From assembly GCA_021802585.1 (NCBI GenBank), contig JAJZRQ010000019.1:1-40530 (forward strand): a stretch of 40,530 nt of DNA, written 5' to 3'. Positions within the stretch are counted from its first letter, which is position 1, and each line of letters opens with the position of its first letter. Below are positions 7,909 to 29,226 of the stretch, in pieces. Position numbers and translations under genes: made by a program. The notes beneath the pieces are model-generated. The model saw nothing but the letters and a program-made list of their open reading frames with translations, made no database searches and had not been told where the DNA came from. Source of the stretch: Chloroflexota bacterium. GTDB taxonomy: Bacteria; Chloroflexota; Limnocylindria; Limnocylindrales; CSP1-4.

Positions 7909-7915
7909 CGCCGCG

Positions 7916-7921
7916 ATTCTA
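7916..7921 (-). promoter_or_regulatory. Leaderless-type -10 element (TAGAAT) of manC
   Basis: TAGAAT (TANNNT class) ends exactly 7 nt before the manC ATG and no ribosome-binding site lies between. Transcription would begin at or next to the A of the start codon, as described for leaderless genes in Deinococcus and actinobacteria. No clear -35 is seen. Confidence 0.5.
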
Positions 7922-7954
7922 CGGGCCGCGACGGCCGCCGGAGCCGCCGAACGC

Positions 7955-7988
7955 GCGGGGCGCGGCCGGGCCGCGGGGCGCGGCCGGG
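7955..7988. repeat. Tandem 16-bp repeat in the metK-manC intergenic region
   Basis: GCGGGGCGCGGCCGGG occurs at 7955-7970 and 7973-7988 (18-bp period), inside the 116-bp gap downstream of metK. Each unit contains CGGCCG and can fold; it may act as an mRNA 3' structure for metK or may just reflect local GC bias. Confidence 0.5.
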
Positions 7989-8024
7989 AGCGCGCGGGCC
8001 CCGCCGGAGCCGCGCGCCGGATGA

Positions 8025-9215
8025 TCAGGCCCCGGGGTGCGGCGGGGGCTCCGGGAGGCCGCACTCCTCGGCGAGGATCGCGGCCTTGTCCGTCCGCTCC
8101 CAGGGCAGGTCGAGGTCGGGCCGGCCGAAGTGGCCGTAGGCGGCCGTCTGCCGGTAGATCGGCGTGAGGAGGTCGAGGGCGGAGATGATCGCCGCGGGCC
8201 GGAGATCGAAGTGGCGGTCGATCGCGGCCCGGATCTGCTCGTCCGGGACGTGCCCGGTCCCGAACGTCTCGATCGAGATCGAGAGCGGGTGGGAGATCCC
8301 GATCCCGTACGCGAGCTCGAGCTCGAAGCGGTCGGCGAGGCCCGCCGCGACGACGTTCTTCGCCACCCAGCGGGCCGCGTACGCGGCGGAGCGGTCGACC
8401 TTCGTGGGGTCCTTGCCGGAGAAGGCGCCGCCGCCGTGGCGGGCCATCCCCCCGTAGGTGTCGACGATGATCTTCCGGCCCGTGAGCCCGGCGTCGCCCA
8501 TCGGCCCGCCGATGACGAAGCGGCCGGTCGGGTTGACGTGCATGACGGGGTCGACGGGGCGGAGCTCGTGGGGGATGACGGGGAGGATGACCGCCTCGAC
8601 GAGGTCGTCGCGGAGCTGCTCCGGGGCGTCCGGGTCGTGCTGCGCGGCGATGACGACCGTCGCGACGCGCGCGGGGCGGCCGTGCTGGTACTCGACGGTG
8701 ACCTGCGTCTTCCCGTCCGGCCGCAGGTACGGCAGCTGGCCCGACTTCCGCGCCTCCGCGAGACGGCGCGCCAGGCGGTGGGCGAGGGCGATCGGGAGCG
8801 GCATGAGCTCCGGCGTCTCGCGGCAGGCGAAGCCGAACATCATCCCCTGGTCGCCGGCCCCGAGCTCGGCGGCGTCGACGCCGCGGGCGATGTCGGGCGA
8901 CTGCTCCTTGATGCTCACGAGGGCGCCGCAGGTCTGGTAGTCGAACCCGTACTCGGCCTTCGTGTAGCCGATCTCGCGGACCGTCTCGCGGATGACGGTC
9001 TGGAAGTCGACGTACGTCGTCGTCGTGATCTCGCCGAGGACGGCCACGAGGCCGGTCGTCGTCGCCGCCTCGCACGCGACGCGCGCCCCCGTGTCCTCGC
9101 GGAGGATCGCGTCGAGGATCGCGTCCGAGATCTGGTCGCACATCTTGTCCGGGTGGCCCTCGGTGACCGACTCGGACGTGAACAGGTAGCTGGGGGCGTC
9201 GACGATGCTGGTCAT
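8025..9215 (-). CDS. metK: S-adenosylmethionine synthetase
   Basis: Makes S-adenosylmethionine from methionine and ATP. 396 residues from ATG 9213-9215, the usual length. [20 protein letters not shown] is the N-terminal ATP/methionine signature. [12 protein letters not shown] is the family hexapeptide region, followed by [30 protein letters not shown] with [19 protein letters not shown], and GISHPLSI near the C-terminus. An in-frame extension of 14 residues is possible but lacks a start signal. There is no Shine-Dalgarno sequence; TACCCT ends 7 nt before the ATG, suggesting leaderless expression. It lies on the same strand as ahcY, mtnA and apt, which handle the by-products of SAM use. Confidence 0.97.
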
Positions 9216-9222
9216 CGGGGCG

Positions 9223-9228
9223 AGGGTA
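9223..9228 (-). promoter_or_regulatory. Leaderless-type -10 element (TACCCT) of metK
   Basis: TACCCT ends 7 nt before the metK ATG, the same geometry as at manC, with only C/G and no ribosome-binding site between. This would place the transcription start at the start codon. Confidence 0.45.
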
Positions 9229-9273
9229 GCACGGGGCGGCGCGAGGTCGCCGCCCACGCCGGAGGGACGGGCG

Positions 9274-11244
9274 TCACGGGCGCGCGCCGCGCCACGGGAG
9301 CGGCGGGAGGTCGTCGGCGGGGGCGAACCCGAAGACGGCTCCGTAGAAGGCGAGCTCCGCCTGGGCGGAGCGGACGATGCTCGCGGCCTGCCGGAAGCCG
9401 TGGTCCTCGCCCTCGAAGGCGAGGTAGACGTGGGGGATCCCCTTCGCGGCGAGGGCCGCCACGATCCGCTCCGCCTCCGTCGGCGGGACGACGCGGTCGT
9501 CGAGGCCCTGGAGGACGAGGACGGGGCAGGAGAACCCGTCGGCGTGGAAGATCGGCGAACGGGCCCGGTAGCGCTCCGCCTCCGCCGGGTACGGCCCGAC
9601 GAGCCGCTCGAGGTACCGCGACTCGAACTTGTGGGTCTCGGCGACGAACGTCTCGAGGTTCCCGATCCCGAAGTAGCTCACCCCGGCCCGGAACTCGTCG
9701 CGGAAGGCGAGCGCGCAGAGCGTCGTGTACCCGGAGGCGCTCCCGCCCTCGATCGCGAGGCGCGCCGGGTCGGCGAGACCGCGAGCGACCATCGCCCGCG
9801 CGCCGGCGACGCAGTCGTCGACGTCGGTCAGGCCCCACGTCCCCTCGAGGCGCTTCCGGTACGCCTTCCCGTAGCCGGTGCTGCCCCCGTAGTCGACGTC
9901 GAGGACGGCGATCCCGCGGCTCGTGAGGAGCTGGACCGGGAGGTGGAGACCCGTGTACGCCGCGGAGGTCGGGCCGCCGTGGCTCGTGACGACGAGCGGC
10001 GGCAGCTCCCCGGCGGGGCCGGTGTGCGTGGGGCTCGTCGGGCGGTAGAGGATCCCGTGGGCCGTCCGGTCGCCGCTCGTCGGGAACGCGACGGGCTCGC
10101 CGGCCGCGACGACCGGCGGGTCGAGCTCCACCTCGGACGAGCGGCGGAGGACCGTCCAGGCGCCGGTCCGGAGGTCGATCCGGACGACGGCCCGGAACAT
10201 CGTCGGGGCGGCGCCGATCGCGATCGCCTCCGTCCCGCGGACGGCGAGCCAGCCGAGCTCCGTGAACGGCAGGTCGAGCGTCTCGGGAGCGCGAGCGCCC
10301 GACGGGTCGATGCGCCAGAGGCGGTCCCGGCCGCCGGACCGGCCGATCGCCGCGATCGTGCCGTCGGCGCTGAACCCGAACGCCGCGTGGCCGAAGTTCC
10401 AGGCGGGCTCCGCGAACTCCGCGGCCACGCCGGCGGTGAGCGGAGCGAGCCGCGCGCCATCCCAGCGGTGGAGGCCGATCCACGCGCCCGGCTCCGACGC
10501 GACGACGAGGCTGCCGTCCGGCGCCCAGCGCGGCTGGGCCGTCCACGTGGCGGGGTTGCCCGCAATGACCCGCGGCGCGACGGGCCGGCCGGCCGCGTCG
10601 AGGTCCGCGACGAGGCACTCGGCCCCGTCCCACGGCAGGTTCGGGTGGTCCCAGCGGAGCCAGGCGAGGCGCGCCCCGTCGGGCGCGAGGCGCGGCGACG
10701 AGACGAAGTCGCTCCCCGCGACGAGGACGTCGATCGCGGACGCGTCGGCGACGGCGCGGCCGTCGAGCGGCACGGCGACGATCGTGTTCACGGCCTCGCC
10801 GGGCCCCGAATGGTCCTCCCGGACGGCGAGGAGGCGGCCCCGCGCCGCGTCGAGCTCGAGGTCGGCGAAGCGGAACGGACCCTCGGGCGTGATCGGCGTG
10901 GCCGTCCGGTCCGCCCCGACCCGCAGGAGGCGGCCGGTCGCGAAGTCGGAGACGACGACGACGTCGCCGCGGGCGGCGTACGCCCCGCCGCCGTACTCGT
11001 GGACCCGCGTCCGCACGTTCACCCCGGCGGGGCTCACGTCCGCGGGCGGCGCGCCGGGCCGGAGGCGGACGAGGGTGAACCGGCCACCGTCCGCCGGCCG
11101 CGACTCGAGCCACGTGACGTCGTCGCCGTCGAGCCGCGACTCGGCGAGGCGGACGACGCCCGCGACGAGTGCCCCCGGCGCGATCGGCGAGGGCCAGCTG
11201 CCGTGGGGAGCGACCCGCCGCTCCCGCGCTCCGTTCGTCGTCAC
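9274..11244 (-). CDS. S9 family (prolyl oligopeptidase-type) serine peptidase
   Basis: Alpha/beta-hydrolase peptidase with an N-terminal beta-propeller; cleaves short peptides or acyl-peptides. 656 residues from GTG 11242-11244, with GAGG about 10 nt upstream. No signal peptide or membrane segment, so probably cytoplasmic. The N-terminal about 390 residues are propeller-like ([29 protein letters not shown]). The C-terminal domain has [10 protein letters not shown] (oxyanion region) and [18 protein letters not shown]. The nucleophile is in [11 protein letters not shown] (Ser502), the Asp in LDDRVVPP (about 582/583), and the His in EDHGF (His615). The nucleophile motif is G-x-S-x-S rather than the usual G-x-S-x-G. 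The substrate is unknown, and it has no obvious link to its methionine-cycle neighbours. Confidence 0.92.
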
Positions 11245-16386: not shown

Positions 16387-18537
16387 TCAGCCGCCCCGGC
16401 GGTCCCCCGCGAGCGGCGCGCCGACCCGGGCGAGGAGCGCCCCGGCGGCCGCGCGCACCTCCCCGGCGTCCCGCGCGTCGAGGGCGCGCCGGGCGAGGGC
16501 GCGGAGCTCGTCGAGCGTCGCCGCCGCGAGGGCCCCCCGCACGTCGTCGAGGGAGCCCGCGTCGGCCGACAGCTCGTCGACGCCGAGGCCAACGAGGACG
16601 AGGGCGCCGGCCGGGTCGCCGGCGAGCTCCCCGCAGACGGCGACCGGGATCCCGGCCTCGTCGGCGCCGGCGACGACCCCGGCGACCGCCCGCAGGACGG
16701 CCGGGTGGAGGGCGTCCTGGAGCCGCCCGAGCGTGGCGTTCCCGCGGTCGGCGGCCATGACGTACTGGGTCAGGTCGTTCGTGCCGATGCTGAAGAAGGC
16801 GACCCGGCGGGCGAGCTCGCGCGCGAGGAGCGCCGCGGCCGGTACCTCGACCATGATCCCCGTGACGATCCCCTCGGCGCACGGCCGGCCGGCCGCGAGG
16901 ACTGCCGACCGCGCCTCGTCGCGGAGCTCGTCGAGGAGGTCGACGTCGTCGAGCGTCGCGACCATCGGCGCCATGACGTGGGGCCGGACGCCGGCGAGGC
17001 CCCCGGCGCGCCAGATCGCCCGGAGCTGGGTGCCGAGGAGCTCGCGGTCACCGTAGGCGAGGCGGATCGCGCGGACGCCGAGGAACGGGTTCGCCTCGGC
17101 CGGCAGCCCGAGGTACGGGATCCCCTTGTCCCCGCCGATGTCGGCGAGGCGGATGACGACCGGACGGGCGGGCCCGAACGCCTCGAGGGCCCGGCGGTAC
17201 GCCGCGACCTGCTCGTCCTCCGTCGGCGGCGTCTGGCGCCGCATGAACAGGAACTCGGTCCGGAACAGCCCGACGCCCTCCGCCCCGGCCTCGAGGGCCC
17301 GCGGCGCGTCGTCGGGATGGCCGATGTTCGCGACGAGGACGACCCGCACGCCGTCGGCCGTGGCGGCCGGTCGTCCGCGGGCCGCCGCCGCCCGGGCTCG
17401 CCGCGCGGCGAGGGCCGCGGCCCGGGCGGCGAACGCCGCCCGGGCCGCGACGTCGGGATCGACGAGGACCTCGCCGGACTCGCCGTCGACGGCGACCTCG
17501 ACGGTCGCCCCGCCCGCGGCTGCCCCGTCGACCGCCTCGAGGAGGCCGGCGCACCCGACGACGCAGGGAATCCCGAGCCCTCGGGCGAGGATGACGGCGT
17601 GGGCCGTCCGGGACCCGCCGGCGAGGGCGATCCCGCGGAGGAGGGCCGCCGGGATCTCCGCCGTCACCGAGGGCGGCAGGTCGTCGGCCACGGCGACGAC
17701 GGGGGCATCGGGGAGCGCGAGCGTCTCGCCGCGGAGGGCCCGCGCGATCCGCGCCCCGACGTCGCGGACGTCGGCCGCCCGGGCCGCGAGGAGCTCGTCG
17801 CCGAGGCCGGCAACCATGCGGGCGGCCTCGTCCGCGGCATCGACGACCGCGGCGGCGGGGTCGGACCCGGCGGCGACGCGGGCGAGCGCCCCGTCGACGA
17901 TCGTCGGATCCGCGGCGAGGACGGCCTGGGCCTCGAAGATCCCGGCGTCGTCGGGTCGGCCGGCGGCCCGGATCCGCGTGGCGAGGGCCTCGAGCTGGGA
18001 TTCGGCGGCGGCGGCGGCGGCGCGGATCGCGGCCCCCGGGTCGCCGGCGACCGGGACGCCCCCGGCCGCCCCGGGCTCCCGGTAGCGCCACGCGGGGGCG
18101 ATCGCGATCCCGGCGACGGCGCCGAGTCCCGCGAGGCGCCCCGCGCCGGCGGGCGGCGGCGCGGCAGCGGGTGCGGGTCCGGCCGCGGGCGCCGCGGGCA
18201 CGGCCGCGGGTACGGGCACGGGTGAGGGGGTCGCCCCGGCGCCAGCGGGCGGCGGCGCCGGGACCTCCTCGCCCAGGCCCGCCTCGATCGCGGCCCGGAT
18301 CGCCTCGATCGCCTCCGCCTCGTCCTCGCCCGCGGCGGTGATCCGGACGAGATGGCCCATCCGGACACCGAGCGGCTGGACCCGGAGCATCTGCTTCGCG
18401 TTCGCCGGACCGGCCCCGGTCGTGAGGTTCCGGATCGTCACCTCGGACCGGCTGCGGGCGCAGACCCGCACGAACTGCGCGAGGGGGCGCAGGTGGAGCC
18501 CGTTCGGGTTGCGGATCTCGATCTCGAGCGTCTGCAC
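16387..18537 (-). CDS. ptsI: HPr-Enzyme I fusion, phosphoenolpyruvate-protein phosphotransferase
   Basis: Takes phosphate from PEP and passes it, through its own HPr domain, to DhaM. 716 residues. Residues 1-90 are HPr with the phospho-acceptor in NPNGLHLRPLAQF (His15). The regulatory Ser46 region reads AKQML, with Gln49 in place of the serine that HPr kinase modifies. Residues about 91-135 are an Ala/Pro linker. The remainder is Enzyme I: GGSRTAHAVILARGLGIPCVVG (His313), GVGLFRTEFLFM, RLADIGGDKGIPYL, FFSIGTNDLTQYVMAADR and VAVCGELAGDP (Cys635). Fusions of DhaM-HPr-EI are known; here the DhaM part is a separate gene in the same operon. No sugar-specific PTS permease is in the window. Confidence 0.94.
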   Translation of the reverse strand: MQTLEIEIRNPNGLHLRPLAQFVRVCARSRSEVTIRNLTTGAGPANAKQMLRVQPLGVRMGHLVRITAAGEDEAEAIEAIRAAIEAGLGEEVPAPPPAGAGATPSPVPVPAAVPAAPAAGPAPAAAPPPAGAGRLAGLGAVAGIAIAPAWRYREPGAAGGVPVAGDPGAAIRAAAAAAESQLEALATRIRAAGRPDDAGIFEAQAVLAADPTIVDGALARVAAGSDPAAAVVDAADEAARMVAGLGDELLAARAADVRDVGARIARALRGETLALPDAPVVAVADDLPPSVTAEIPAALLRGIALAGGSRTAHAVILARGLGIPCVVGCAGLLEAVDGAAAGGATVEVAVDGESGEVLVDPDVAARAAFAARAAALAARRARAAAARGRPAATADGVRVVLVANIGHPDDAPRALEAGAEGVGLFRTEFLFMRRQTPPTEDEQVAAYRRALEAFGPARPVVIRLADIGGDKGIPYLGLPAEANPFLGVRAIRLAYGDRELLGTQLRAIWRAGGLAGVRPHVMAPMVATLDDVDLLDELRDEARSAVLAAGRPCAEGIVTGIMVEVPAAALLARELARRVAFFSIGTNDLTQYVMAADRGNATLGRLQDALHPAVLRAVAGVVAGADEAGIPVAVCGELAGDPAGALVLVGLGVDELSADAGSLDDVRGALAAATLDELRALARRALDARDAGEVRAAAGALLARVGAPLAGDRRGG

Positions 18538-18558: not shown

Positions 18559-19671
18559 TCAGGATGCGGGGCGGGCGGGGCCGCCGCCCGGCCCGGCGGT
18601 CGGCGCGGCGCCGCGCTCGGCGACGAGCTCGACGATCCGCGCGGGCCGGGCCGCGAGGTCGGCGGCGAGGCGGGGATCGACCGTCGCCGCGGCGACGAGG
18701 TCGGCGAGGGCAGCGTTCACCGGCGTCGGCACGCCGCAGCCCGCCCCGGCCCGCGCCACGGCGCCGTTGAGCCAGGCGACCTCTGAGGGTCCCGCCACCC
18801 CGCCCCGAACGTGGAGGCGGAGCGAGGGCCACTTCCCGCCGCGGGCCCCGCCGGCGACCCGCCGTAGGATCGCCCGCGAGAGTGGGGCCGGGAGGCGGAT
18901 CCCGAGGATGAGGAGCGGGACGTTCGCCCCTGGCAGCGCGACGAGCCCGATCCCCCGGGCCCGCATGACCGCGACCGCCTCGAGGAGCTGCCGGCGCTCG
19001 AGGTCGAAGAGCGCAGGATCCGCGTAGACCTCGGCCGGGTCGCGGTCGGCGAGCGCCGAGAGGGCGTTCCCGACGAGGTTCGCGACGAGCTTCGACCACT
19101 TCATCGAGCGGGCGTCGGCGAGGCGCCGGGCGGGAAGGCCGACGGCCGTGAACGAGGCGACGAGCGCGTCGACGAGCGCGTCGACGGGCCCGCCCACGAG
19201 CGCGAGCCCGATCCCGCCCCGGCCGCGCCAGCGCACCTCCCCGGGCCCCGGCCGCTCGACCGGGGCGGTGAGGGACCCGGCGACGTGGCCGACCCCCGGG
19301 CGGGCGGCCGCCACGAGGTCCTCCGCCCCGACCCCGTTCTGGATCGTGAGGACGGCGGCGGACGGCCACGCCCGCAGCTCGTCGAGGGCGCCGGCGAGGT
19401 CGAACGTCTTCACGGCGAGGACGACGAGCTCCGGCTCGTCCCGGACCGCGGCCACCGACGCCGCGCGCCCCACGCGGACGACGCGTCGACGGTCGCCCGG
19501 CTCGTGGAGGACGACCTCCGTGCCGTCGTCCGCGACGCGCGGGTCGACGAGGACGACCTCCGCGCCGGCCGCCGCGAGGAGCCCGCCGAGGAGCGTGCCG
19601 ACTGCCCCCGCGCCGAGCACGACGACGCGCCGCGGCGCGCCGGGCGGGCCGGCCGCGGCGGGCCCGCTCAC
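18559..19671 (-). CDS. 2-dehydropantoate 2-reductase family protein
   Basis: NADPH-dependent ketopantoate reductase fold (PanE/ApbA), which makes pantoate for coenzyme A. 370 residues from GTG 19669-19671, overlapping the dhaM stop by GTGA. The N-terminus is a Rossmann motif (VVVLGAGAVGTLLGGLLAAAGAEV). LVVLAVKTFDLAGAL and TIQNGVGAEDLV follow. The catalytic Lys/Asn region is MKWSKLVANLVGNALSALAD. The C-terminal domain includes PSEVAWLNGAVARAG with TPVN(A)AL, both family hallmarks. It sits between dhaM and the HPr-EI gene inside the glycerol operon, an unexpected place for pantothenate synthesis. It may instead reduce another 2-oxo compound; this is inference, so no gene symbol is given. Confidence 0.88.
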   Translation of the reverse strand: MSGPAAAGPPGAPRRVVVLGAGAVGTLLGGLLAAAGAEVVLVDPRVADDGTEVVLHEPGDRRRVVRVGRAASVAAVRDEPELVVLAVKTFDLAGALDELRAWPSAAVLTIQNGVGAEDLVAAARPGVGHVAGSLTAPVERPGPGEVRWRGRGGIGLALVGGPVDALVDALVASFTAVGLPARRLADARSMKWSKLVANLVGNALSALADRDPAEVYADPALFDLERRQLLEAVAVMRARGIGLVALPGANVPLLILGIRLPAPLSRAILRRVAGGARGGKWPSLRLHVRGGVAGPSEVAWLNGAVARAGAGCGVPTPVNAALADLVAAATVDPRLAADLAARPARIVELVAERGAAPTAGPGGGPARPAS

Positions 19672-20072
19672 TCGGGGATCTTCGGCAGGCTCGCGGCCTC
19701 CTCCGCCGCGGCGAGGACCGCGGCGAGGTCGTCGCCCACGCTCGCCTGCACCGCGGCGACGACGGCGCCCTCGACGAGCGGGCCGCGGGAGAGGCGCACC
19801 CGCGACGCCGCGTCGCCCATGAGCTCGAAGGCGGTCTGGGTCGCGAGGACCGCGCTCCCGAGGTCGACGAGGACGACGACGCCGGCCCCAGCGTCGGCCG
19901 CGACGATCGCCTCCATGATCGACGCGGCGTCCGTGCCGAGCGACCCGTCGGGAAGACCCCCGGCCGCCTCGATCCGGACGTCGTCGCCGACCATCTGGCG
20001 GGCCAGCTCGACCGTCCCGGCGGCGATCTGCGCGGAGTGGCTCACGATGACAAGGCCGACGAGCTGCTCCAT
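19668..20072 (-). CDS. dhaM: PTS-dependent dihydroxyacetone kinase phosphotransferase subunit DhaM (EIIA domain, first copy)
   Basis: Mannose-type EIIA domain that accepts phosphate from HPr and rephosphorylates the ADP held on DhaL. 134 residues: only the EIIA part, without the HPr and EI-like parts of E. coli DhaM. The acceptor is in LVIVSHSAQIAAG (His12). GTDAASIMEAI and VVVLVDLGSAVLATQTA are typical, and SRGPLVEGAVVAA closes the domain. Starts 9 bp after the sdhD-like stop; its own stop overlaps the next gene. The HPr-EI fusion needed to charge it is two genes downstream. Confidence 0.93.
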   Translation of the reverse strand: MEQLVGLVIVSHSAQIAAGTVELARQMVGDDVRIEAAGGLPDGSLGTDAASIMEAIVAADAGAGVVVLVDLGSAVLATQTAFELMGDAASRVRLSRGPLVEGAVVAAVQASVGDDLAAVLAAAEEAASLPKIPE

Positions 20073-20081
20073 GCCGGAATC

Positions 20082-20465
20082 CTACGCGGCGTCGAGGATC
20101 GCGGCGACGAGCGCGACGCCGTAGGCGACCGTGGCGATCCCGACGACCGCGAGGAAGCCGGTGATCCGGTGCTCGGTCCGCTCGGAGAACCCGAAGTCGA
20201 AGAGGATCGCCCGCACGCCGAGGAGGGCGTGGTACGTGACGACGACGAGGAATGCCACCTCGAGGACGATCACGACGGGGTTCCGCAGCCAGTCGACGAC
20301 GGCGGCGAAGTCGCGGAGCCCGCTCGGGACGACGAAGTGCTGGGCGATCATGTGGAGGCCGAGGAGCACGAGCAGGGCGGCCCCGCTCAGCACCTGGCCG
20401 ACGAATCCCGGGACCATGCGGGGCCCGGCCTCGGGTCGGGCGGCCGCCGGCTGGTCGCTGGTCAT
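20082..20465 (-). CDS. Succinate dehydrogenase-like membrane anchor subunit (SdhD type)
   Basis: 127 residues with three transmembrane segments (about 22-47, 64-88, 101-124). Candidate haem-b ligands are His38 and His43 (GLHMIAQHF) and His79 (YHALLGVRAILFDFG). The last motif, H-A-x-x-G-x-R...D, is the conserved SdhD/FrdD helix. It anchors an iron-sulfur subunit and passes electrons to quinone. It lies 13 bp after the SdhC-like gene. No sdhA is present; the flavoprotein gene in this operon is glpA, so this anchor may serve glycerol-3-phosphate oxidation. Confidence 0.85.
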   Translation of the reverse strand: MTSDQPAAARPEAGPRMVPGFVGQVLSGAALLVLLGLHMIAQHFVVPSGLRDFAAVVDWLRNPVVIVLEVAFLVVVTYHALLGVRAILFDFGFSERTEHRITGFLAVVGIATVAYGVALVAAILDAA

Positions 20466-20478
20466 CTCGGGCTCCCTC

Positions 20479-20898
20479 CTACCCGGCCGTGAAGATCCGC
20501 AGCCCGCCGGCGAGGGCGACGAGCGCGGCGATTGCCATGAGCGCGACGAAGAGCGCCCGCTGGCGGCTCGCCACGAGCCCCAGGCCGACGAGGCCGACGC
20601 GGATCCCGTTGAGGCCGTGGATGAGGATCCCCGCGAGGAGGATGACGTCGAGGGCGAGGAAGGGCGGGCTCAGGGCGACCTCGATGAACGTGTCCCACGC
20701 GGTCGGCCCCTGGGCGAGGAGCGCCAGGATCACGAGGTGGAGGTAGAGGTAGACGACGAGGCCGATCCCCGTGATCCGGTTGACGAGGAAGGCGATGCCC
20801 CCGAGGCGCCGGCCGCGGGGATCGAACCAGCCGACGAAGCCGGGGCGGCGGGCGGGGCCGACGGCGGGTCGTCGCGGCTCCGCGGTCGTGGACGCCAT
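20479..20898 (-). CDS. Succinate dehydrogenase-like cytochrome b subunit (SdhC type)
   Basis: 139 residues from ATG 20896-20898, which overlaps the stop of the iron-sulfur subunit gene (TGATG). Three transmembrane segments at about 33-62, 81-107 and 114-136. Residues FLVNRITGIGLVVYLYLHL correspond to the SdhC signature usually written (S)-H-R-x-T-G; here the first His is Asn40, with Arg41 kept. His54 and His94 (ILIHGLNGIRVG) are candidate haem ligands, the latter being the strongest family motif. With the SdhD-like protein it forms the quinone-reactive membrane part of a Complex II-type enzyme. Confidence 0.87.
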   Translation of the reverse strand: MASTTAEPRRPAVGPARRPGFVGWFDPRGRRLGGIAFLVNRITGIGLVVYLYLHLVILALLAQGPTAWDTFIEVALSPPFLALDVILLAGILIHGLNGIRVGLVGLGLVASRQRALFVALMAIAALVALAGGLRIFTAG

Positions 20899-21644
20899 CA
20901 GCGGGTTCCTCCGAACGAGAAGAGGCGCCGGGCCCGGGCGGACGCCGCCGACCGGCGGATCCGCATGATCGCCGTCGCCGGATCGACGCCGGACGGGCAT
21001 GCCTCGCTGCACTCCCAGGCGAGGTGGCAGCGCCACGCCGCCTGCTCGTCGTCCATGAGCCGGACGACCGGGCCGGGGTCGCGCCCGCGCGGCTCCTCCA
21101 CGACGCGCCAGGCGGCGGCGAGGGCCGCCGGGCCGACGTAGCGGGGGTCGCTGCCGGCCACCGGGCAGGCGGACAGGCAGATCCCGCATTCGATGCAGTC
21201 CTCGTAGCGCTCGAGCTCCTCGATCCCCTCGGCGGGCGTGCTCCCGGGGACGCTCTCGGACGCCCGGACGAGCGGCCGACCCGCCTCGTCGAAGGCCTCG
21301 TAGAAGACCTCCATGTCGACGACGAGGTCGGACACGACGGGGAGGTTCGCGAGCGGCTCGACGACGACCTCGGCGCCGGACGGGACCGGGGTGACGCAGG
21401 CGAGCCCCTCGCGGCCGTCGACGCGCATCCCGCACGTCCCGCACGACGCGTGGAAGCACGAGTGGCGGAACGTCAGGCCAGGGTCGAGGTGGCGCCGGAT
21501 CGCCACGAGCGCGTCGAGGATCGTCGTCCGCGGTCCGACGGCCACGTCGTACGTGTCGTAGCGCAGCGCGCCCGGGTCGTCGCCCTCCTTGCGGCGCGAG
21601 ACGACGAAGCGGGTCGTGCGGAGCGCGGGTGCGGTCTCGGTCAT
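20898..21644 (-). CDS. Succinate dehydrogenase/fumarate reductase-type iron-sulfur subunit (SdhB)
   Basis: 248 residues carrying all three clusters of a Complex II iron-sulfur subunit. [2Fe-2S] in a ferredoxin-like N-terminal domain: Cys63, 68, 71, 83 (CFHASCGTC...C). [4Fe-4S]: Cys150, 153, 156, 160 (CIECGICLSACP). [3Fe-4S]: Cys206, 212, 216 (CHLAWECSEACP). This layout is SdhB/FrdB and not GlpC, which has CCG domains and no plant-type ferredoxin. It carries electrons from a flavoprotein to the membrane subunits. It begins 10 bp after the glpA stop, and its own stop overlaps the SdhC-like start. The absence of sdhA suggests GlpA is its flavoprotein partner (inference). Confidence 0.93.
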   Translation of the reverse strand: MTETAPALRTTRFVVSRRKEGDDPGALRYDTYDVAVGPRTTILDALVAIRRHLDPGLTFRHSCFHASCGTCGMRVDGREGLACVTPVPSGAEVVVEPLANLPVVSDLVVDMEVFYEAFDEAGRPLVRASESVPGSTPAEGIEELERYEDCIECGICLSACPVAGSDPRYVGPAALAAAWRVVEEPRGRDPGPVVRLMDDEQAAWRCHLAWECSEACPSGVDPATAIMRIRRSAASARARRLFSFGGTR

Positions 21645-21654
21645 GGCACCGCTC

Positions 21655-22842
21655 CTACGCTGCGTAGTACGCGGTGTGCGGGAGGGTCACGACCTCCCGG
21701 GTCTGGCAGGGGGCGTCGACCCCCATCTTCCGGCAGATGACGTCGGCGGTCGTCTCCGCCATTGCGCGGAGCGTCGTCCCCTTGCCGCCGGAGATCGTGA
21801 CGAAGCCCTCGACCCCGTCGGTCTCGCGGTGGTCGAAGCACTTGAACGTCCGGCTCAGCTCGCGCCCCGAATCGGCGTCGCGGGACCCGATGAGCGGCCG
21901 CGCGGCCGACCAGGCGGCCCGCCGCTCCGCGTGGCGGATCGCGGGGATCATCTTCGCCCCCTCGACGTACATCCGCTCGACGTGGTCCTCCGGCACGCCG
22001 AGGTCGTCGGGGTCCTCGACGACCCACGAGCTCGTCCCGACGACGGAGAGCCCCCGCTGGGGAACGATGATGTCCCCGTCACCGGAGGCGTGGAGGTGGT
22101 TGATCACCATGTTGCACCAGCGGCCGCGGACGGCGAGGATGACGCCCGGCGACGGCCGGATCGGCACGTCGCAGCCGGCCATGACGGCGACCTGCCCGGC
22201 CCACGGCCCGGTCGCGTTCACGACGAGGTCGGCGCGGATCTCCTCCTCGACGCCGTTCGCCAGGTCGCGGACGCGCGCGCCGCCCACGACGCGGTCGGTC
22301 ACGAGGAGCTCGGTGACCGCGGTCCAGGGGCGGATCACCGCCCCGCCCGCCTTCGCCGTGGCGAAGAACCGGAGGGGCATCCGCATCGCGTCCATCGTCG
22401 CGTCGGGGACCTGGACCGCCATCTTCAGCTCGGGGTTCAGGTTCGGCTCGAGGCGGAGGGCCTCGGCCCGCGAGACGCGCCGCGCGGGGATCCCGCTCGC
22501 GAGGCAGGACTCGAAGAAGAGCGGCTCGTAGGCGACGTCCTCGTCGGTGATCGCGACGAAGAGCCCGTCGTTCTCCTCGAACGTGCCGGGGCAGACCCGG
22601 CCGAGGATCCGGCGCTCCTCGATGCACTCGACCGCGGACTCGCGGTCCTTCACCGCGTAGCGGGCGCCGGAGTGGAGGAGGCCGTGGTGGCGGCCCGTCG
22701 TGCCGGAGGTCACCTCGCCGCGCTCGACGAGGGTGACGCGGAAGCCGCGGAGGACGAGGTCATGGGCAAGGGCACCGCCGGTGCCGCCGCCGCCCACGAC
22801 GAGGACGTGATACGGCTGCCGGGGAAGTCGCGTGATCGTCAT
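21655..22842 (-). CDS. glpA: FAD-dependent glycerol-3-phosphate dehydrogenase (GlpA-type, lacking the C-terminal [2Fe-2S] domain)
   Basis: Oxidises glycerol-3-phosphate to dihydroxyacetone phosphate at a bound FAD. 395 residues from ATG 22840-22842. The FAD dinucleotide motif is VLVVGGGGTGGALAHDLVLR (residues 13-32), followed by VERGEVTSGTTGRHHGLLHS. Substrate and flavin residues are in LVVNATGPWAGQVA and SGGKGTTLRAMAETTADVIC, which matches GlpA more than GlpD. E. coli GlpA has about 540 residues with a Cys-rich C-terminal domain; here the chain ends at that point (...TREVVTLPHTAYYAA). Neither glpB nor glpC is present. Complex II-like iron-sulfur and anchor genes follow at once, suggesting that they take over electron transfer. 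Confidence 0.93.
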   Translation of the reverse strand: MTITRLPRQPYHVLVVGGGGTGGALAHDLVLRGFRVTLVERGEVTSGTTGRHHGLLHSGARYAVKDRESAVECIEERRILGRVCPGTFEENDGLFVAITDEDVAYEPLFFESCLASGIPARRVSRAEALRLEPNLNPELKMAVQVPDATMDAMRMPLRFFATAKAGGAVIRPWTAVTELLVTDRVVGGARVRDLANGVEEEIRADLVVNATGPWAGQVAVMAGCDVPIRPSPGVILAVRGRWCNMVINHLHASGDGDIIVPQRGLSVVGTSSWVVEDPDDLGVPEDHVERMYVEGAKMIPAIRHAERRAAWSAARPLIGSRDADSGRELSRTFKCFDHRETDGVEGFVTISGGKGTTLRAMAETTADVICRKMGVDAPCQTREVVTLPHTAYYAA

Positions 22843-22912: not shown

Positions 22913-24409
22913 CTACTCGACCCAGCCGAACGTGCGCGTGACGGCCTTCTTCCACTGCGCGTACTCGGCGTCGACCTTCGCGGCATCCATCGTCGGATGC
23001 CACTCGTGGTCCTTCGCCCAGTTCGCGCGGAGGTCCTCGACCGCGCCCCAGTACCCGACGGCGAGGCCGGCCGCGTAGGCCGCCCCGAGCGCCGTCGTCT
23101 CGGCGACCTTCGGCCGGATGACCGGGACCTTCAGGACGTCGGACTGGAACTGCATGAGGAGGTTGTTGTAGACCATGCCGCCGTCGACCTTGAGGGCCGT
23201 GAGCGGAACGCCGGAGTCGGCGTTCATCGCGTCCAGGACCTCGCGGGTCTGCCAGGCGGTCGCCTCGAGGACGGCCCGCGCGATGTGGCCCTTCGTGACG
23301 TACCGGGTGAGGCCCGCGATCACGCCGCGGGCGTCGTTCTTCCAGTACGGCGCGAAGAGGCCGCTGAACGCCGGGACGAAGTAGACGCCGCCGTTGTCCT
23401 CGACGCTGGCCGCGAGGGCCTCGATGTCGGGGGACTGCTGGATGAGCCCGATGTTGTCGCGGATCCACTGCACGAGGGCGCCGGTGATGGCGATCGAGCC
23501 CTCGAGCGCGTACACGGCCGGCTGGTCGCCGATCTTGTACGCGAGCGTCGTGAGGAGGCCGCTCTTGCTGGGGACCGCCTTCGTGCCCGTGTTGAGGAGC
23601 ATGAAGCAGCCCGTGCCGTACGTGTTCTTCGCCTCGCCGGGCGAGTAGCACGTCTGGCCGAACAGGGCGGCCTGCTGGTCGCCGAGGTCGCCGGCGACGG
23701 GGACGCCGGCGAGGTCGCCGGTCGCCTTGCCGTAGACCTCGGACGAGGCCTTGACGTGGGGCAGCATCCCCCGCGGGACGCCGAGGAGCCCGAGGATCTC
23801 GGAATCCCAGTCGAGGGTCGTGTAGTTGAACATGAGCGTCCGGCTCGCGTTCGAGACGTCCGTGACGTGGACGCCGCCCGACGGGCCGCCGGTCAGGTTC
23901 CAGATGCACCAGGTGTCGATGTTGCCGAAGAGCAGGTTCCCGGCCTCGGCCTCGGCGCGCGCGCCGGGGACGTTGTCGAGGATCCACTTGGCCTTCGGGC
24001 CGGAGAAGTAGGTGGCGAGGGGGAGCCCGGTCTTCGGGCGGAGGCGATCGGGGCCGCCGTCCTTCTCGAGGGCGTCGCAGATGTCCTTCGTCCGGGTGTC
24101 CTGCCAGACGATCGCGTTGTAGACCGGCTTGCCGGTCCGGCGATCCCAGACGACCGTCGTCTCGCGCTGGTTCGTGACGCCGACCGCGGCGAGGTCCGCG
24201 GCGGTGATGCCGGCCTTGGCGAGGGCGCCCCGGATGACCTCGACGCTCCGCGTCCAGATCTCCATCGCGTCGTGCTCGACCCACCCCGGCTTCGGGTAGA
24301 TCTGCTCGTGCTCCTTCTGATCGATCCCCACGACCTGGCCGGCGTGGTCGAAGATCATGAAGCGGGTGCTCGTGGTCCCCTGGTCGAGGGCCCCCACGTA
24401 CTTCGTCAT
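22913..24409 (-). CDS. glpK: Glycerol kinase
   Basis: Phosphorylates glycerol to glycerol-3-phosphate with ATP in the cytoplasm. 498 residues from ATG 24407-24409, with GGGAG upstream. [18 protein letters not shown] is the phosphate-1 motif. [20 protein letters not shown] and IVWQDTRT bind glycerol (Arg-Glu pair). [13 protein letters not shown] is the FGGY metal/adenosine segment. [15 protein letters not shown] is followed by [13 protein letters not shown] and [19 protein letters not shown]. The C-terminus is of the usual length. Codon choice is slightly less GC-extreme (Lys AAG and Asn frequent) than its neighbours, as expected for a highly expressed gene. Confidence 0.98.
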
Positions 24410-24449: not shown

Positions 24450-25082
24450 CTAGCGCCCGGCCCAGACTTCCGCGGCGGACCGCAGAAGGAGATGCGAGGA
24501 CGTCGCGCCGGGATCCTGGTGACCGGCCGACCGCTCGCCGAGGTAGCTCGCCCGGCCCTTGCGGGCGACGAGCGGCACCGTGGCGAGCATCCCCTGCTCC
24601 GCCCCGTCGGCCATCCGGGTGATCGCGTCGCTGACGGACGCGCCGTCGGCGATCGCGGCCCGGAGGGCGTCGCGGGCGGGGATGAGGGCATCGACCATCG
24701 TCTTGTCCCCGGGCTCGGCCTTCCCGATCCGGAGGACCCCGCCGAGGCCCGTCTCGAAGGCCGTGGCGAACTCCTCCAGGGTGAGGGCCTCCTTCCCGGT
24801 GACGGCGCCTCCCATCTGCATGAAGAACATCCCGTAGAGCGGGCCGCTGGCCCCGCCGACCGTCGACACGAGGGTCGTGCCGACGGTCTTGAGGGCGGCG
24901 CCGATGTCGGGGCTCGCGAGACCGTCGAGCTTGCCGACCACGGCCGTGAAGCCGCGATCCATGTTGATCCCGTGATCGGCGTCGCCGATCGCCGAGTCGA
25001 GCTCGGTGAGGTACGCCTTGTTCGCCGTCACGGCGGCGGCGAAGCGGCGGACCCAGGCAAGGATGTCGTCGTACGAGATCAT
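24450..25082 (-). CDS. dhaL: Dihydroxyacetone kinase subunit DhaL (first copy)
   Basis: ADP-binding subunit that transfers phosphate from its bound nucleotide to dihydroxyacetone on DhaK. 210 residues from ATG 25080-25082, with GGAG six nt upstream; a TTG 12 nt earlier is possible but worse. Mg-ADP ligands are in [18 protein letters not shown] (Asp34, Asp36, His37). [20 protein letters not shown] is the nucleotide-capping loop. [13 protein letters not shown] and [20 protein letters not shown] follow. It sits 48 bp downstream of dhaK and is the copy expected to work with it. Confidence 0.95.
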
Positions 25083-25130
25083 CGGCGGCTCCAATCCCGC
25101 GCTACGGGCAGTGGCGGGGCGACGCCCAGC

Positions 25131-26129
25131 TCAGCGTCCCCAGCGGAGCCCCGGCGTGTGGACCGGCGCATCCCAGTGCTTCGTGAGCTCGTCGTCGAGG
25201 CGCAGGAGCGTGATCGAGCAACCAGCCATCTCGAGCGACGTGATGTAGTTGCCGATGAGGTTCCGGGCGATCGTGATCCCCCGGGCGTCGAGGATCTTCT
25301 TCAGCTCGTTGAAGATCACGTACAGCTCGATGAGGGGCGTCCCGCCCATCCCGTTGACGAAGGCGAGGACCTTGTCGCCCGCCTTGAACGGGAGGTCGTC
25401 GAGGATCGGCGTGGCGAGCATGGCCGTGATCTCGGCGGCCGAAGCGAGCTTCATCCGGGTCCGTCCCGGCTCGCCGTGGATGCCGATCCCGATCTCCATC
25501 TCGTCGTCGCCGAGCTCGAACGTCGGCTTGCCGGCGGCCGGGACCGTGCAGCTCGTCAGGGCCATCCCCATGGAGCGGACGTTGTCCTGGACCTTCTGGC
25601 AGAGCGCCGTCACCGTCGCGAGATCGGCGCCCGCCTCGGCGGCGGCTCCCACGATCTTCTCGGCGAGGACGGTCCCTCCGACGCCGCGGCGGCCCGCGGT
25701 GTACAGCGAGTCCTTGACCGCGACGTCGTCCGCGATGACGACGCTCGTGACCTCGATCCCCTCGGCCCGCGCCATCTCGGCGGCGAGCTCGAAGTTCATG
25801 ATGTCGCCGGTGTAGTTCTTGACGATGTGCAGGACGCCGGCGCCGCCGTCGACCGCCTTGGTCGCGGCGAGCATCTGGTCCGGCACCGGCGAGGTGAAGA
25901 CGGCGCCGGGGCAGGCGGCGTCGAGCATGCCCATGCCGACGAAACCGCCGTGCATCGGCTCGTGGCCGCTGCCGCCACCCGAGATGACGCCGACCTTCCC
26001 CTTCTTCGGGGCGTCGGCCCGCACGACGACGTTCGGCTCGATGACGCGGACGAGGTCCGCGTGCGCCGCCGCGACGCCGGCGAGCTCGTCGTCGACAACC
26101 GACTCGGGGGCGTTGATGAGCTTCTTCAT
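25131..26129 (-). CDS. dhaK: Dihydroxyacetone kinase subunit DhaK
   Basis: Binds dihydroxyacetone covalently and presents it to DhaL for phosphorylation. 332 residues from ATG 26127-26129, preceded by GGAGGAACGG. The covalent hemiaminal His is in [13 protein letters not shown] (His218, the same number as in E. coli). Catalytic His56 (GGGSGHEP) and Asp109 (YTGD) are also kept. The protein has the typical PTS-type length without an attached DhaL domain, so the kinase is PEP-dependent and needs DhaM and HPr-EI. In E. coli DhaK also represses the regulator DhaR; no dhaR is present here. Confidence 0.97.
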
Positions 26130-27331: not shown

Positions 27332-28015
27332 TCAGCCGGCCGCGGCGTCGGCGAGGGCGCGGACGAGGAGGGCGCTCGAGGCCGCACCGGGGTCGAGGTG
27401 CCCGATCGAGCGCTCCCCGAGGTAGCTCGCCCGGCCCTTCGTGGCAAGGAGGGGGATCGTCGCGAGGGCGCCGGCCTCCGCCGCGGCCGCGGCGGAGGCG
27501 CAGGCGACGGCGAGCGGGGCGCCGGCGGCCACCGCGGCGCCGAGCGCGTCGCGCGCCGGGACGAGCGCGTCGAGCATCGTCTTCTGCCCCGGGGCCGCGC
27601 GCCCGAGGGCCGTGATCGCCGCGACGGCCGCCGCGAACGCCGCGGCCGTCCGTTCCTCGCGAGATGGTCTGGCGGTTCGCGCGCCCCCCGGCTCGCCCGG
27701 CACCACCTGCCCTCCCCCGTCGAGGGCGGCGAGGACCGCGCCCGCCCGCTGGAGCCCCCGGCCGTAGAGCGCCCCGCTCGCCCCGCCGACGGTGCCGATG
27801 AGCGCGCGGCCCGCGCCGTCGAGCGCGAGCGCCGGGGGCTCGACGGGACACGCGCCCGCGTCGAGGCGCCGGAGGAGCTCCCGGAAGCCCCGGTCGAGGT
27901 TGATCCCGTGGTCCCCGTCGCCGATCGCGGCGTCGAGATCGGTGAGGCGCTCCCGTTCGGCGGCGACGCGCGCGGCGGCGAGGCGCAGCCAGCGCTCGAC
28001 GAGCTCGTCCGTCAC
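27332..28015 (-). CDS. dhaL: Dihydroxyacetone kinase subunit DhaL (second copy)
   Basis: 227 residues from GTG 28013-28015, overlapping the stop of the adjoining dhaM by GTGA. The Mg-nucleotide motif is complete: LDAAIGDGDHGINLDRGF. TVGGASGALYGRGL and the C-terminal [17 protein letters not shown] are kept. The usual GDKT reads GQKTMLDALVPA. It also has a Gly/Arg-rich insertion (GGGQVVPGEPGGARTARP) absent from the first copy. It has no own DhaK, so it either shares the operon's DhaK or acts on another ketose or as a regulator. Overall Ala/Arg richness is higher than in the first copy, suggesting relaxed constraint. Confidence 0.9.
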   Translation of the reverse strand: MTDELVERWLRLAAARVAAERERLTDLDAAIGDGDHGINLDRGFRELLRRLDAGACPVEPPALALDGAGRALIGTVGGASGALYGRGLQRAGAVLAALDGGGQVVPGEPGGARTARPSREERTAAAFAAAVAAITALGRAAPGQKTMLDALVPARDALGAAVAAGAPLAVACASAAAAAEAGALATIPLLATKGRASYLGERSIGHLDPGAASSALLVRALADAAAG

Positions 28016-28440
28016 GCGGCGCCGCCGGCGAGCCAGTCGGGCGGGAGCTTCGGCGCCGTCCGCTCGGCGTCGGCGGCGGCGCGCACCGCCTCGCGGGACG
28101 CCCCGCCGGCCGCCTCCACCGCCGCCCGCACCGCCCCCTCGACGAGCGGGCCCTCGCTCACGACGACGAAGGCGCGCTCCGCACGGTCCAGCTCCTCGAG
28201 CGCGATCTCGAGGGCCATCGCCGCGCTCCCCAGGTCGAGGAGGACGACGATGCCGTCGCCGCCGGCCGCGGCGAGGCCGGCCCGGAGCGCGTCGCGGATG
28301 CCGGGCGCGCTCGTGCCGAGGCCCCCGACGAGCGTCCCGCCAGCGGTCGCCACGCGAACCGCGGGCGCGGCCTGGCCGACCATCTCGCGGAGGGCACGGA
28401 GGAGCGCGGGGCTGTGACCGACGAGCACCAGCGCAACCAT
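28012..28440 (-). CDS. dhaM: DhaM EIIA domain protein (second copy)
   Basis: 142 residues from ATG 28438-28440. The phospho-acceptor is in VALVLVGHSPALL (His9). Family features IVVLLDLGSAAMALEIALEEL and VVSEGPLVEGAVRAA are present. GTSAPGIRDAL replaces the more usual GTDA. It overlaps the second dhaL and diverges from the third dhaL-like gene across 72 bp. Phosphate would come from the single HPr-EI fusion encoded about 10 kb downstream on the same strand. Confidence 0.88.
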   Translation of the reverse strand: MVALVLVGHSPALLRALREMVGQAAPAVRVATAGGTLVGGLGTSAPGIRDALRAGLAAAGGDGIVVLLDLGSAAMALEIALEELDRAERAFVVVSEGPLVEGAVRAAVEAAGGASREAVRAAADAERTAPKLPPDWLAGGAA

Positions 28441-28496
28441 GGCGTCCGCTCCCGCGACCCGAGCCGAGACGGCCCACGGGGCCGTCGCCGCCGCCG

Positions 28497-28502
28497 TAGA
28501 CT
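28497..28502 (+). promoter_or_regulatory. Candidate -10 element (TAGACT) for the dhaL-like/kinase/regulator operon
   Basis: TAGACT ends 10 nt before the ATG at 28513, giving a leader of only a few nucleotides and no room for a ribosome-binding site. An 8-bp hairpin GACGGCCC/GGGCCGTC (28468-28486) sits just upstream in the divergent intergenic region. No good -35 is seen. Confidence 0.4.
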
Positions 28503-28512
28503 CTGGCGGCCG

Positions 28513-29226
28513 ATGCAGAGGATAGGGTCCCCGGCGTCCCGTCCGCGCGTCGCCGCGGCGAGTCCCGACGCGGCGGCGCTCGCCGCGCCCCACGTCGTGG
28601 CGTTCGTCGAGCGCGCCGCGCTCGTCCTCCGGCGCCACGAGGCGCTCCTCGACCGCCTCGACGCGGCCCTCGGCGACGGCGACCACGGCACGAACATGGC
28701 GATCGGGTTCGCCGCCGCCGTCCCGGTCGCGCGGCACGGGATCGCGGAGCGGCCGGACGACGTCGGAGAGCTCCTCCGCGCCCTCGGCCACAGCCTCGTC
28801 GCGAACGTGGGGGGGGCGAGCGGCCCGCTCTACGGGACCGCCTTCATCGAGGCCGGGTTCGCGCTCGTCGGGCGTCCGAGCGCGGGGCCCGCGGAGCTCG
28901 CCGCCGCCCTCGAGGCCGGGCGTGACGGCCTCGCCCGACGCGGCCGCTGCGCGGTCGGCGACAAGACGATCCTCGACGCGCTCGACCCGGCCTGCCGGGC
29001 CCTTCGCGCCGGTGCCGAGGCCCGCCTCCCCCTCCTCGACTGCGTCGCCGCGGCCGCGGTCGCCGCAGGGGTCGGGATGCGGGGCACGATTCCGCTCGTG
29101 GCGCGGCGCGGCCTCGCCCTCCGCCTCGGCGAGCGATCGCGCGGCCACCGCGACCCCGGCGCGGTGTCGTGCTTCCTCCTCCTCGGGGCGATGGCCCGGG
29201 CCGTCGCCGGCGAGACCGTCGGGTGA
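28513..29226 (+). CDS. DhaL-like protein (third copy), co-translated with a histidine kinase
   Basis: 237 residues from ATG 28513. It has the full nucleotide-binding set: [45 protein letters not shown] and LGERSRGHRDPGA. It begins with an extra 25-residue segment not found in the other copies. In the DhaL family the bound ADP/ATP state signals kinase activity, and in E. coli DhaL-ADP activates DhaR. Here the stop codon overlaps the start of a histidine kinase (GTGA), so the two are made together. A sensing role in a two-component system is inferred from context; a catalytic role as a third kinase subunit remains possible. Confidence 0.85.
   Translation: MQRIGSPASRPRVAAASPDAAALAAPHVVAFVERAALVLRRHEALLDRLDAALGDGDHGTNMAIGFAAAVPVARHGIAERPDDVGELLRALGHSLVANVGGASGPLYGTAFIEAGFALVGRPSAGPAELAAALEAGRDGLARRGRCAVGDKTILDALDPACRALRAGAEARLPLLDCVAAAAVAAGVGMRGTIPLVARRGLALRLGERSRGHRDPGAVSCFLLLGAMARAVAGETVG

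Follow-up and report, generated by a model that had tools for sequence, protein, structure and literature searches.

The window analysed here is a stretch of 40,530 nucleotides from a Chloroflexota bacterium (JAJZRQ010000019.1, assembly GCA_021802585.1; contig C32 of a draft genome of 2.65 Mb, ~96% complete). It carries a glycerol operon in which glpA, for a short FAD-dependent glycerol-3-phosphate (G3P) dehydrogenase, is followed directly by genes for the iron-sulfur subunit and the two membrane anchors of succinate dehydrogenase (SDH; Complex II). On sequence comparison and structure modelling, this operon very probably encodes a membrane-bound G3P:quinone oxidoreductase in which GlpA stands in for SdhA on a scaffold of SdhB, SdhC and SdhD. 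The computed support consists of the gene order, the ligand sets of the subunits, the exclusive pairing of this type of GlpA with SdhB, its exchangeability with glpABC, and the docking of GlpA to SdhB in a predicted structure.

The operon lies on the minus strand and is compact, in the order dhaK-dhaL-glpK-glpA-sdhB-sdhC-sdhD-dhaM-panE-like-HPr-EI. The glpA gene (22842-21655; ATG at 22842, TAG at 21655) encodes 395 amino acids (aa) with a DAO fold and ends 10 bp before sdhB (21644-20898; 248 aa), with a GGAG motif inside the gap. The TGA of sdhB and the ATG of sdhC (20898-20479; 139 aa) have one base in common, and sdhD (20465-20082; 127 aa) follows after 13 bp. An earlier reading of the window, made from the letters alone (the sequence-only reading), had described the same 10 bp gap, the 1-nt overlap and an SdhD-like gene behind it, and the coordinates confirm this; its statement that the window holds no sdhA, glpB or glpC was likewise confirmed, as tblastn found none of the three in the window. 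Because the glpA-sdhB arrangement was seen again in ~100 loci, the joining of glpA to sdhBCD is not a matter of chance.

Sequence features of GlpA and the Complex II-type subunits

The window GlpA matched the DAO domain (E=3.8e-44) and covered only positions 1-375 of the 530 in the GlpA profile TIGR03377, falling below the cut-off of that profile because the C-terminal third is missing. A profile scan of the window protein found no Fer2_BFD, the C-terminal BFD [2Fe-2S] domain, in line with the earlier suggestion that GlpA stops where the usual Cys-rich C-terminal domain would start. Of three long GlpAs tested from relatives (the form that adjoins GlpB; see below), two carry Fer2_BFD, as E. coli GlpA does; the third, from the same genus as the window (L070), gave no match in a scan limited to the stretch aligned by tblastn. 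The equivalents of E. coli GlpD residues R54, Y55, R317, R332 and K354, which bind the substrate in GlpD structures, are kept in the window GlpA and in nearly all of 62 short GlpAs. Together with the operon context, these residues suggest that G3P would be the substrate. A substrate other than G3P might be considered for a protein that falls short of the TIGR03377 cut-off; however, glpK and dhaKLM adjoin, canonical glpABC swaps into the same slot, the GlpD-type residues are retained, and the best Foldseek folds for the flavoprotein half of the natural fusion described below are GlpD and GlpO, which makes another substrate extremely improbable.

The sdhB product matched Fer2_3 (E=3.9e-26), the Fer4 models and TIGR00384, and it contains the complete cysteine pattern of E. 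coli FrdB (11/11), so that the [2Fe-2S], [4Fe-4S] and [3Fe-4S] ligand sets are intact, as had been noted from the sequence. No cysteine substitution was found in 63 GlpA-linked SdhBs, in which only one or two gaps occur, near truncated C-termini. Both anchors matched Sdh_cyt (SdhC, E=7.2e-11; SdhD, E=2.4e-12). In the GlpA-linked set (47-48 sequences, gaps aside), R41, H54 and H94 of SdhC and H38, H43 and H79 of SdhD are invariant. In the alignment, SdhC H94 and SdhD H79 correspond to E. coli SdhC H84 and SdhD H71, and SdhC R41 to R31; from what is established for E. coli SDH, we take the two histidines to be haem ligands and R31 to belong to the quinone site. The candidate haem ligands proposed earlier agree with this alignment, and the anchors would have both the haem-ligand histidines and the putative quinone site expected of Complex II. 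By analogy with E. coli SdhC-H84/SdhD-H71, one haem would be bound, and the extra invariant histidines in helix I would possibly allow a second.

Complex II subunits and other candidate partners in the genome

A count over the whole genome gave two SdhA, three SdhB and six Sdh_cyt proteins. Both SdhAs lie elsewhere in the genome, each with its own SdhB, SdhC and SdhD, and thus form two complete SDHs besides the SdhBCD of the operon. As neither lacks B, C or D subunits, the idea that the operon module complements an incomplete SDH was rejected. Searches with GlpA (E 0.001) found neither a second GlpA nor a GlpD in the genome, and genome searches found no glpB or glpC, with the reservation that a gene not found could lie in the part that the incomplete draft does not cover. 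The lack of a GlpA paralogue argues against GlpD, because a search with GlpA does pick up known GlpD structures (E values of 1e-12 to 1e-25).

The genome has only one CCG protein (contig C101, ~7700-9460), which was considered as a GlpC and rejected, because it is a membrane fusion protein that combines Fe-S and CCG parts, and no glp genes were seen next to it. This single chain has N-terminal transmembrane (TM) helices, an Fe-S part and two CCG motifs, and in our own reading presumably resembles the partner proteins of electron-transfer flavoprotein (ETF):quinone systems.

Other genomes gave comparable accounts. In ten near-complete ones (G360, which is in one contig, G500, G367, G269, G202, G419, G491, G304, G065 and G064), one SdhA has an adjoining SdhB and there is exactly one further full SdhB match, which adjoins GlpA. 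In Gracilinema caldarium SdhB adjoins GlpA, and both PF02910 and Sdh_cyt are absent. The complete genome of Breznakiella homolactica has a sole SdhB, adjoining GlpA, and no Sdh_cyt; its single SdhA-superfamily protein is a distant member encoded in another operon.

As SdhB, SdhC and SdhD are genuine Complex II homologues, it could be argued that they are a third, alternative electron-transfer set serving an SdhA from another locus and only travel along with glpA. However, both SdhAs of the genome already own B, C and D subunits, the single SdhA of many other genomes has an adjoining SdhB, and Gracilinema has a GlpA-type SdhB without any PF02910 protein. With the SdhB tree and the fusion protein described below, these observations leave very little likelihood for a third SDH module.

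Exchange with glpABC in the same operon position

We searched 177 genomes of the class and 400 genomes of the phylum for related loci. The GlpA matches in the 177 genomes formed two groups, short proteins with 50-81% identity to the window GlpA and long ones with ~40%. In their neighbourhoods short GlpA is followed by SdhB and long GlpA by GlpB and GlpC, and the two types share one operon frame, with dhaK-dhaL-glpK upstream and dhaM, panE and HPr-EI downstream. Within the genus of the window, one genome (G029) has the SdhBCD form, another (G032, locus L070) has glpABC after glpK, and in a third (G033) glpK is followed by a long GlpA; other relatives also carry glpABC or glpA after glpK in this slot. 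L054 (genome G008) carries both arrangements in tandem, canonical glpABC and short glpA with sdhB, and at L049 (G013) glpB, glpC and a short GlpA with SdhB lie together on one short contig. These tandem loci are apparently intermediates in the swap between the two G3P dehydrogenases.

Among non-redundant GlpAs, 88 short proteins stand beside SdhB and 29 long ones beside GlpB, with none crossed and a further 18, at contig ends or unlinked, given no partner; the sample was collected by similarity to the window protein, and the counts are not a measure of prevalence. The phylum-wide search placed the glpA-sdhB hybrid in many other Chloroflexota families, and the full order glpA-sdhB-sdhC-sdhD is conserved at many loci in relatives, the genus g12 lacking the anchors.

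Phylogeny and covariation

Trees of GlpA and SdhB were built by quick searches; their branch support is SH-aLRT only, and the root is not inferred. SdhB-linked short GlpAs separated from canonical GlpAs with a branch support of 100, and the two rows of 'long' type inside the short group are the fusion protein of locus L133, described below, and a frameshifted open reading frame (ORF). GlpA-linked SdhBs separated from all sdhA-linked ones, E. coli FrdB included, with a support of 98, and the two kinds never clustered together, which is a further point against a third SDH module. The unlinked SdhBs from genomes with a lone short GlpA were placed inside the GlpA-linked clade.

The distance matrices of GlpA and SdhB were correlated over 58 pairs (r=0.77), a value that none of 2000 permutations reached. 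In 16 genomes the correlation held when the distances of each genome's SDH SdhB were taken into account (partial r=0.75).

A natural GlpA-SdhB fusion and its predicted structure

In locus L133 (JAJYCD010000011.1, from the metagenome-assembled genome (MAG) Actinomycetes bacterium BP9.bin26), a single ORF encodes both GlpA and SdhB, with an Ala/Ser/Thr-rich linker between them, and sdhC and sdhD come immediately after it. GC-rich DNA yields many chance open frames, and a single fusion of this kind would be a lead if taken alone; jointly with the other evidence it is strong, and by coupling SdhB to GlpA it also tells against the SdhBCD module serving an SdhA. A second possible fusion (L064) was not counted, as its glpA contains both a frameshift and an unresolved base.

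The structure of the L133 fusion was predicted with AlphaFold from 42 aligned rows, in which separate genes were read through the GlpA stop where both share a frame. The model had a pLDDT of 86.9 and a pTM of 0.87, with residues 397-453, the 57-residue linker, disordered. For halves that are not placed relative to each other, a pTM of ~0.57, the share of the larger half, would be expected. As a control we used DhaL-GlpK (726 aa, read through the stop, equal number of rows), adjacent genes of the same operon for which no binding is expected; this gave a pLDDT of 87.6 and a pTM of 0.68, no more than GlpK's own share. The GlpA and SdhB halves are thus confidently predicted to dock. The proposal of the sequence-only reading that GlpA replaces SdhA on the SdhBCD scaffold therefore finds support, at the level of sequence comparison and modelling, in the genome accounting, the slot exchange, the SdhB clade, the covariation, the fusion and the docked model.

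These results also bear on a rival explanation, in which GlpA acts by itself or with a different acceptor, as GlpD, GlpO and the CoxG-anchored enzyme of archaea do, and SdhBCD has some other role in the glycerol operon. Three Thermoflexales genomes, in which a lone short GlpA has no adjoining sdhB, would fit this explanation, and a CoxG-anchored GlpA is known in Sulfolobus (PMC11962113). However, the same Thermoflexales genomes keep a spare SdhB elsewhere that belongs to the GlpA-linked clade, and the 88-to-0 pairing, the covarying distances, the fusion and the docking all speak for a partnership, so that a GlpA working without SdhB seems highly improbable.

At the Thermoflexales loci (L203, L204 and L205, family f26) the lone glpA stands beside a divergent LacI-type regulator gene. 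In the genome of L205 (G481), two Sdh_cyt genes lie on contig C7 (165747-166524), ~7 kb from the unlinked GlpA-type SdhB, and SdhA and SdhB are on contig C1, apart from these Sdh_cyt genes.

Pairs without membrane anchors

A scan of named genomes gave 80 loci. Beyond the phylum, short GlpA with SdhB was also found in Spirochaetota, in Desulfobacterota (Nitratidesulfovibrio oxamicus and Desulfovibrio sp. A2), in a Desulfobacteraceae MAG and in two actinobacterial MAGs. Among 198 evenly drawn Spirochaetota genomes there were five GlpA matches of 44-100% identity and less than 500 aa, and 29 in the long group. No SdhC or SdhD was found beside the GlpA-SdhB pair in the Spirochaetota and Desulfobacterota loci examined, and in the genus g12, of the same family as the window, the pair likewise occurs without SdhC/D anchors. 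Nine anchorless g12 genomes have exactly two Sdh_cyt genes, as needed by one SDH, and one genome (G036) with an anchored and an anchorless system has four. The anchorless pairs indicate that the constant unit is therefore GlpA plus SdhB, with SdhCD added or lost. We consider it fairly likely that SdhB(CD) is an exchangeable module stably joined to GlpA across several bacterial phyla, and that the enzyme of Spirochaetota, Desulfobacterota and one Chloroflexota genus works as a GlpA-SdhB pair without Sdh-type anchors, reducing some acceptor in that form.

In g12 (L050, L057, L061 and others), GlpA-SdhB is followed by a panE-like gene and a protein with six TM helices that looks PlsY-like by eye. 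In a deltaproteobacterial MAG (L160), canonical glpA and glpB are followed by an alcohol-dehydrogenase-like gene and then by the short glpA-sdhB, with a GlpC-like gene on the opposite strand.

Some points weigh against a G3P:quinone oxidoreductase built from GlpA and SdhBCD. In some genomes (g12, Spirochaetota and Desulfobacterota) the pair has no SdhC/D, so that quinone reduction at such an anchor does not apply to every pair; the L133 fusion is a single MAG contig, in which a stop codon could have been lost through assembly error; pTM is an indirect measure and was set against one negative control only; and PF01040 is too broad to single out MenA or other quinone genes. The first of these raises the possibility that the complex is real and reduces a soluble carrier, or that it runs backwards as a dihydroxyacetone phosphate (DHAP) reductase. 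The anchorless GlpA-SdhB of Breznakiella, Gracilinema, Desulfovibrio and g12 would suit a non-quinone acceptor, whereas the window has its anchors, as do all Chloroflexota loci other than those of g12 in which both anchors could be read, with SdhC R41 and the haem-type histidines invariant in these anchored loci; the glpK gene in the operon favours oxidation of G3P over the reverse reaction. For the window operon we therefore regard either variant as unlikely.

Proposed reaction and comparison with known systems

In the G3P:quinone oxidoreductase proposed here, glycerol would be converted to G3P by GlpK, and G3P would be oxidised to DHAP at the FAD of GlpA. From FAD the electrons would not take the canonical route over the BFD domain, GlpB and GlpC but would enter the three clusters of SdhB ([2Fe-2S], [4Fe-4S] and [3Fe-4S]), which would hand them to quinone where SdhB, SdhC and SdhD meet in the membrane; we infer both the direction of the reaction and quinone as the acceptor. 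The DHAP would enter glycolysis, and the products of the dhaKLM and phosphotransferase system (PTS) genes would take dihydroxyacetone.

The sequence-only reading knew of no described enzyme of this design, and this did not hold, as a 2025 paper had already predicted a GlpA-SdhBCD complex for Thermofilum pendens and its relatives (PMC11962113). There the complex was drawn from gene order alone, with putative sdhB, sdhC and sdhD genes directly behind glpA in these archaea (PMC11962113, Fig. 9b), and the archaeal GlpA was placed in a subcluster of its own (PMC11962113). The order glpA-sdhB-sdhC-sdhD, a GlpA apart from the canonical form and the electron-transfer role proposed are the same here, as far as the published account of the archaeal system shows. 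The Thermofilum system is archaeal, whereas the present one occurs in Chloroflexota, Spirochaetota, Desulfobacterota and actinobacterial MAGs and comes with a fusion, slot exchange and anchorless pairs. For Bacteria it was stated that glpA consistently occurs with glpB and glpC (PMC11962113), a claim that the present pairs correct. We found no earlier report of a bacterial GlpA-SdhB in the open-access literature, subscription papers lying outside the search. A plasmid-wide tblastn gave only GlpA matches at the canonical level of ~40% identity. The bacterial spread, the slot exchange with glpABC, the fusion and the anchorless pairs are thus new here.

E. coli GlpABC has a homologous FAD subunit, the same place after glpK in relatives and presumably the same reaction; it differs in that the system described here has no GlpB, GlpC or BFD domain and draws its Fe-S chain and anchor from Complex II. 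Conversely, SdhABCD and FrdABCD share with it the three-cluster ligand sets of SdhB and two anchors with haem-aligned histidines, but here the flavoprotein is a DAO-family GlpA instead of SdhA and SdhB falls in a separate clade. In Sulfolobus acidocaldarius a GlpA homologue likewise has an unusual partner replacing GlpBC, in that case a CoxG-like anchor without Fe-S clusters, and no SdhBCD (PMC11962113). Aerobic GlpD is also a DAO-fold G3P dehydrogenase that passes electrons to quinone, but it is a single subunit with its own C-terminal domain.

If GlpA does work on SdhBCD, the oxidation of glycerol and lipid backbones in many environmental Chloroflexota would feed the respiratory chain by way of a Complex II scaffold, and many genes now read as those of a spare succinate dehydrogenase would belong to a glycerol enzyme. 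It would also mean that the Fe-S and anchor subunits of Complex II can work with a flavoprotein from a different family, a point of interest for the modular assembly of respiratory complexes. Carriers of the anchorless pair, Nitratidesulfovibrio oxamicus and Breznakiella homolactica, are in culture, so that part of the proposal is directly testable.

Other genes of the operon and the window

Upstream of glpA, on the minus strand like all genes of the operon, lie glpK (22913-24409), for the glycerol kinase that makes G3P (TIGR01311, 739 bits; cut-off 590), and the dihydroxyacetone kinase subunit genes dhaL (24450-25094; TIGR02365 above cut-off) and dhaK (25131-26129; TIGR02363 above cut-off). 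Downstream, sdhD is separated by 9 bp from dhaM (19668-20072; TIGR02364 above cut-off), for the EIIA-type phosphoryl donor of the dihydroxyacetone kinase, which overlaps by 4 nt a panE/apbA-like ketopantoate reductase gene (18559-19671). The last gene (16387-18537) encodes an HPr-enzyme I fusion, the general PTS components and phosphoryl source for DhaM; this and the panE-like gene were assigned from profile matches.

Two more DhaL (Dak2) ORFs lie beside the operon, overlapping on opposite strands (27335-28477, minus; 28414-29223, plus), which brings the DhaL copies in the window to three; the minus-strand ORF also contains DhaM-like sequence at 28042-28251. Further away on the minus strand, 36932-39076 encodes a PgpH-like 7TMR-HD membrane protein with an intracellular HD hydrolase domain, and a long ORF at 6835-9141, whose true start is probably internal, has a mannose-1-phosphate guanylyltransferase-like domain in its C-terminal half.

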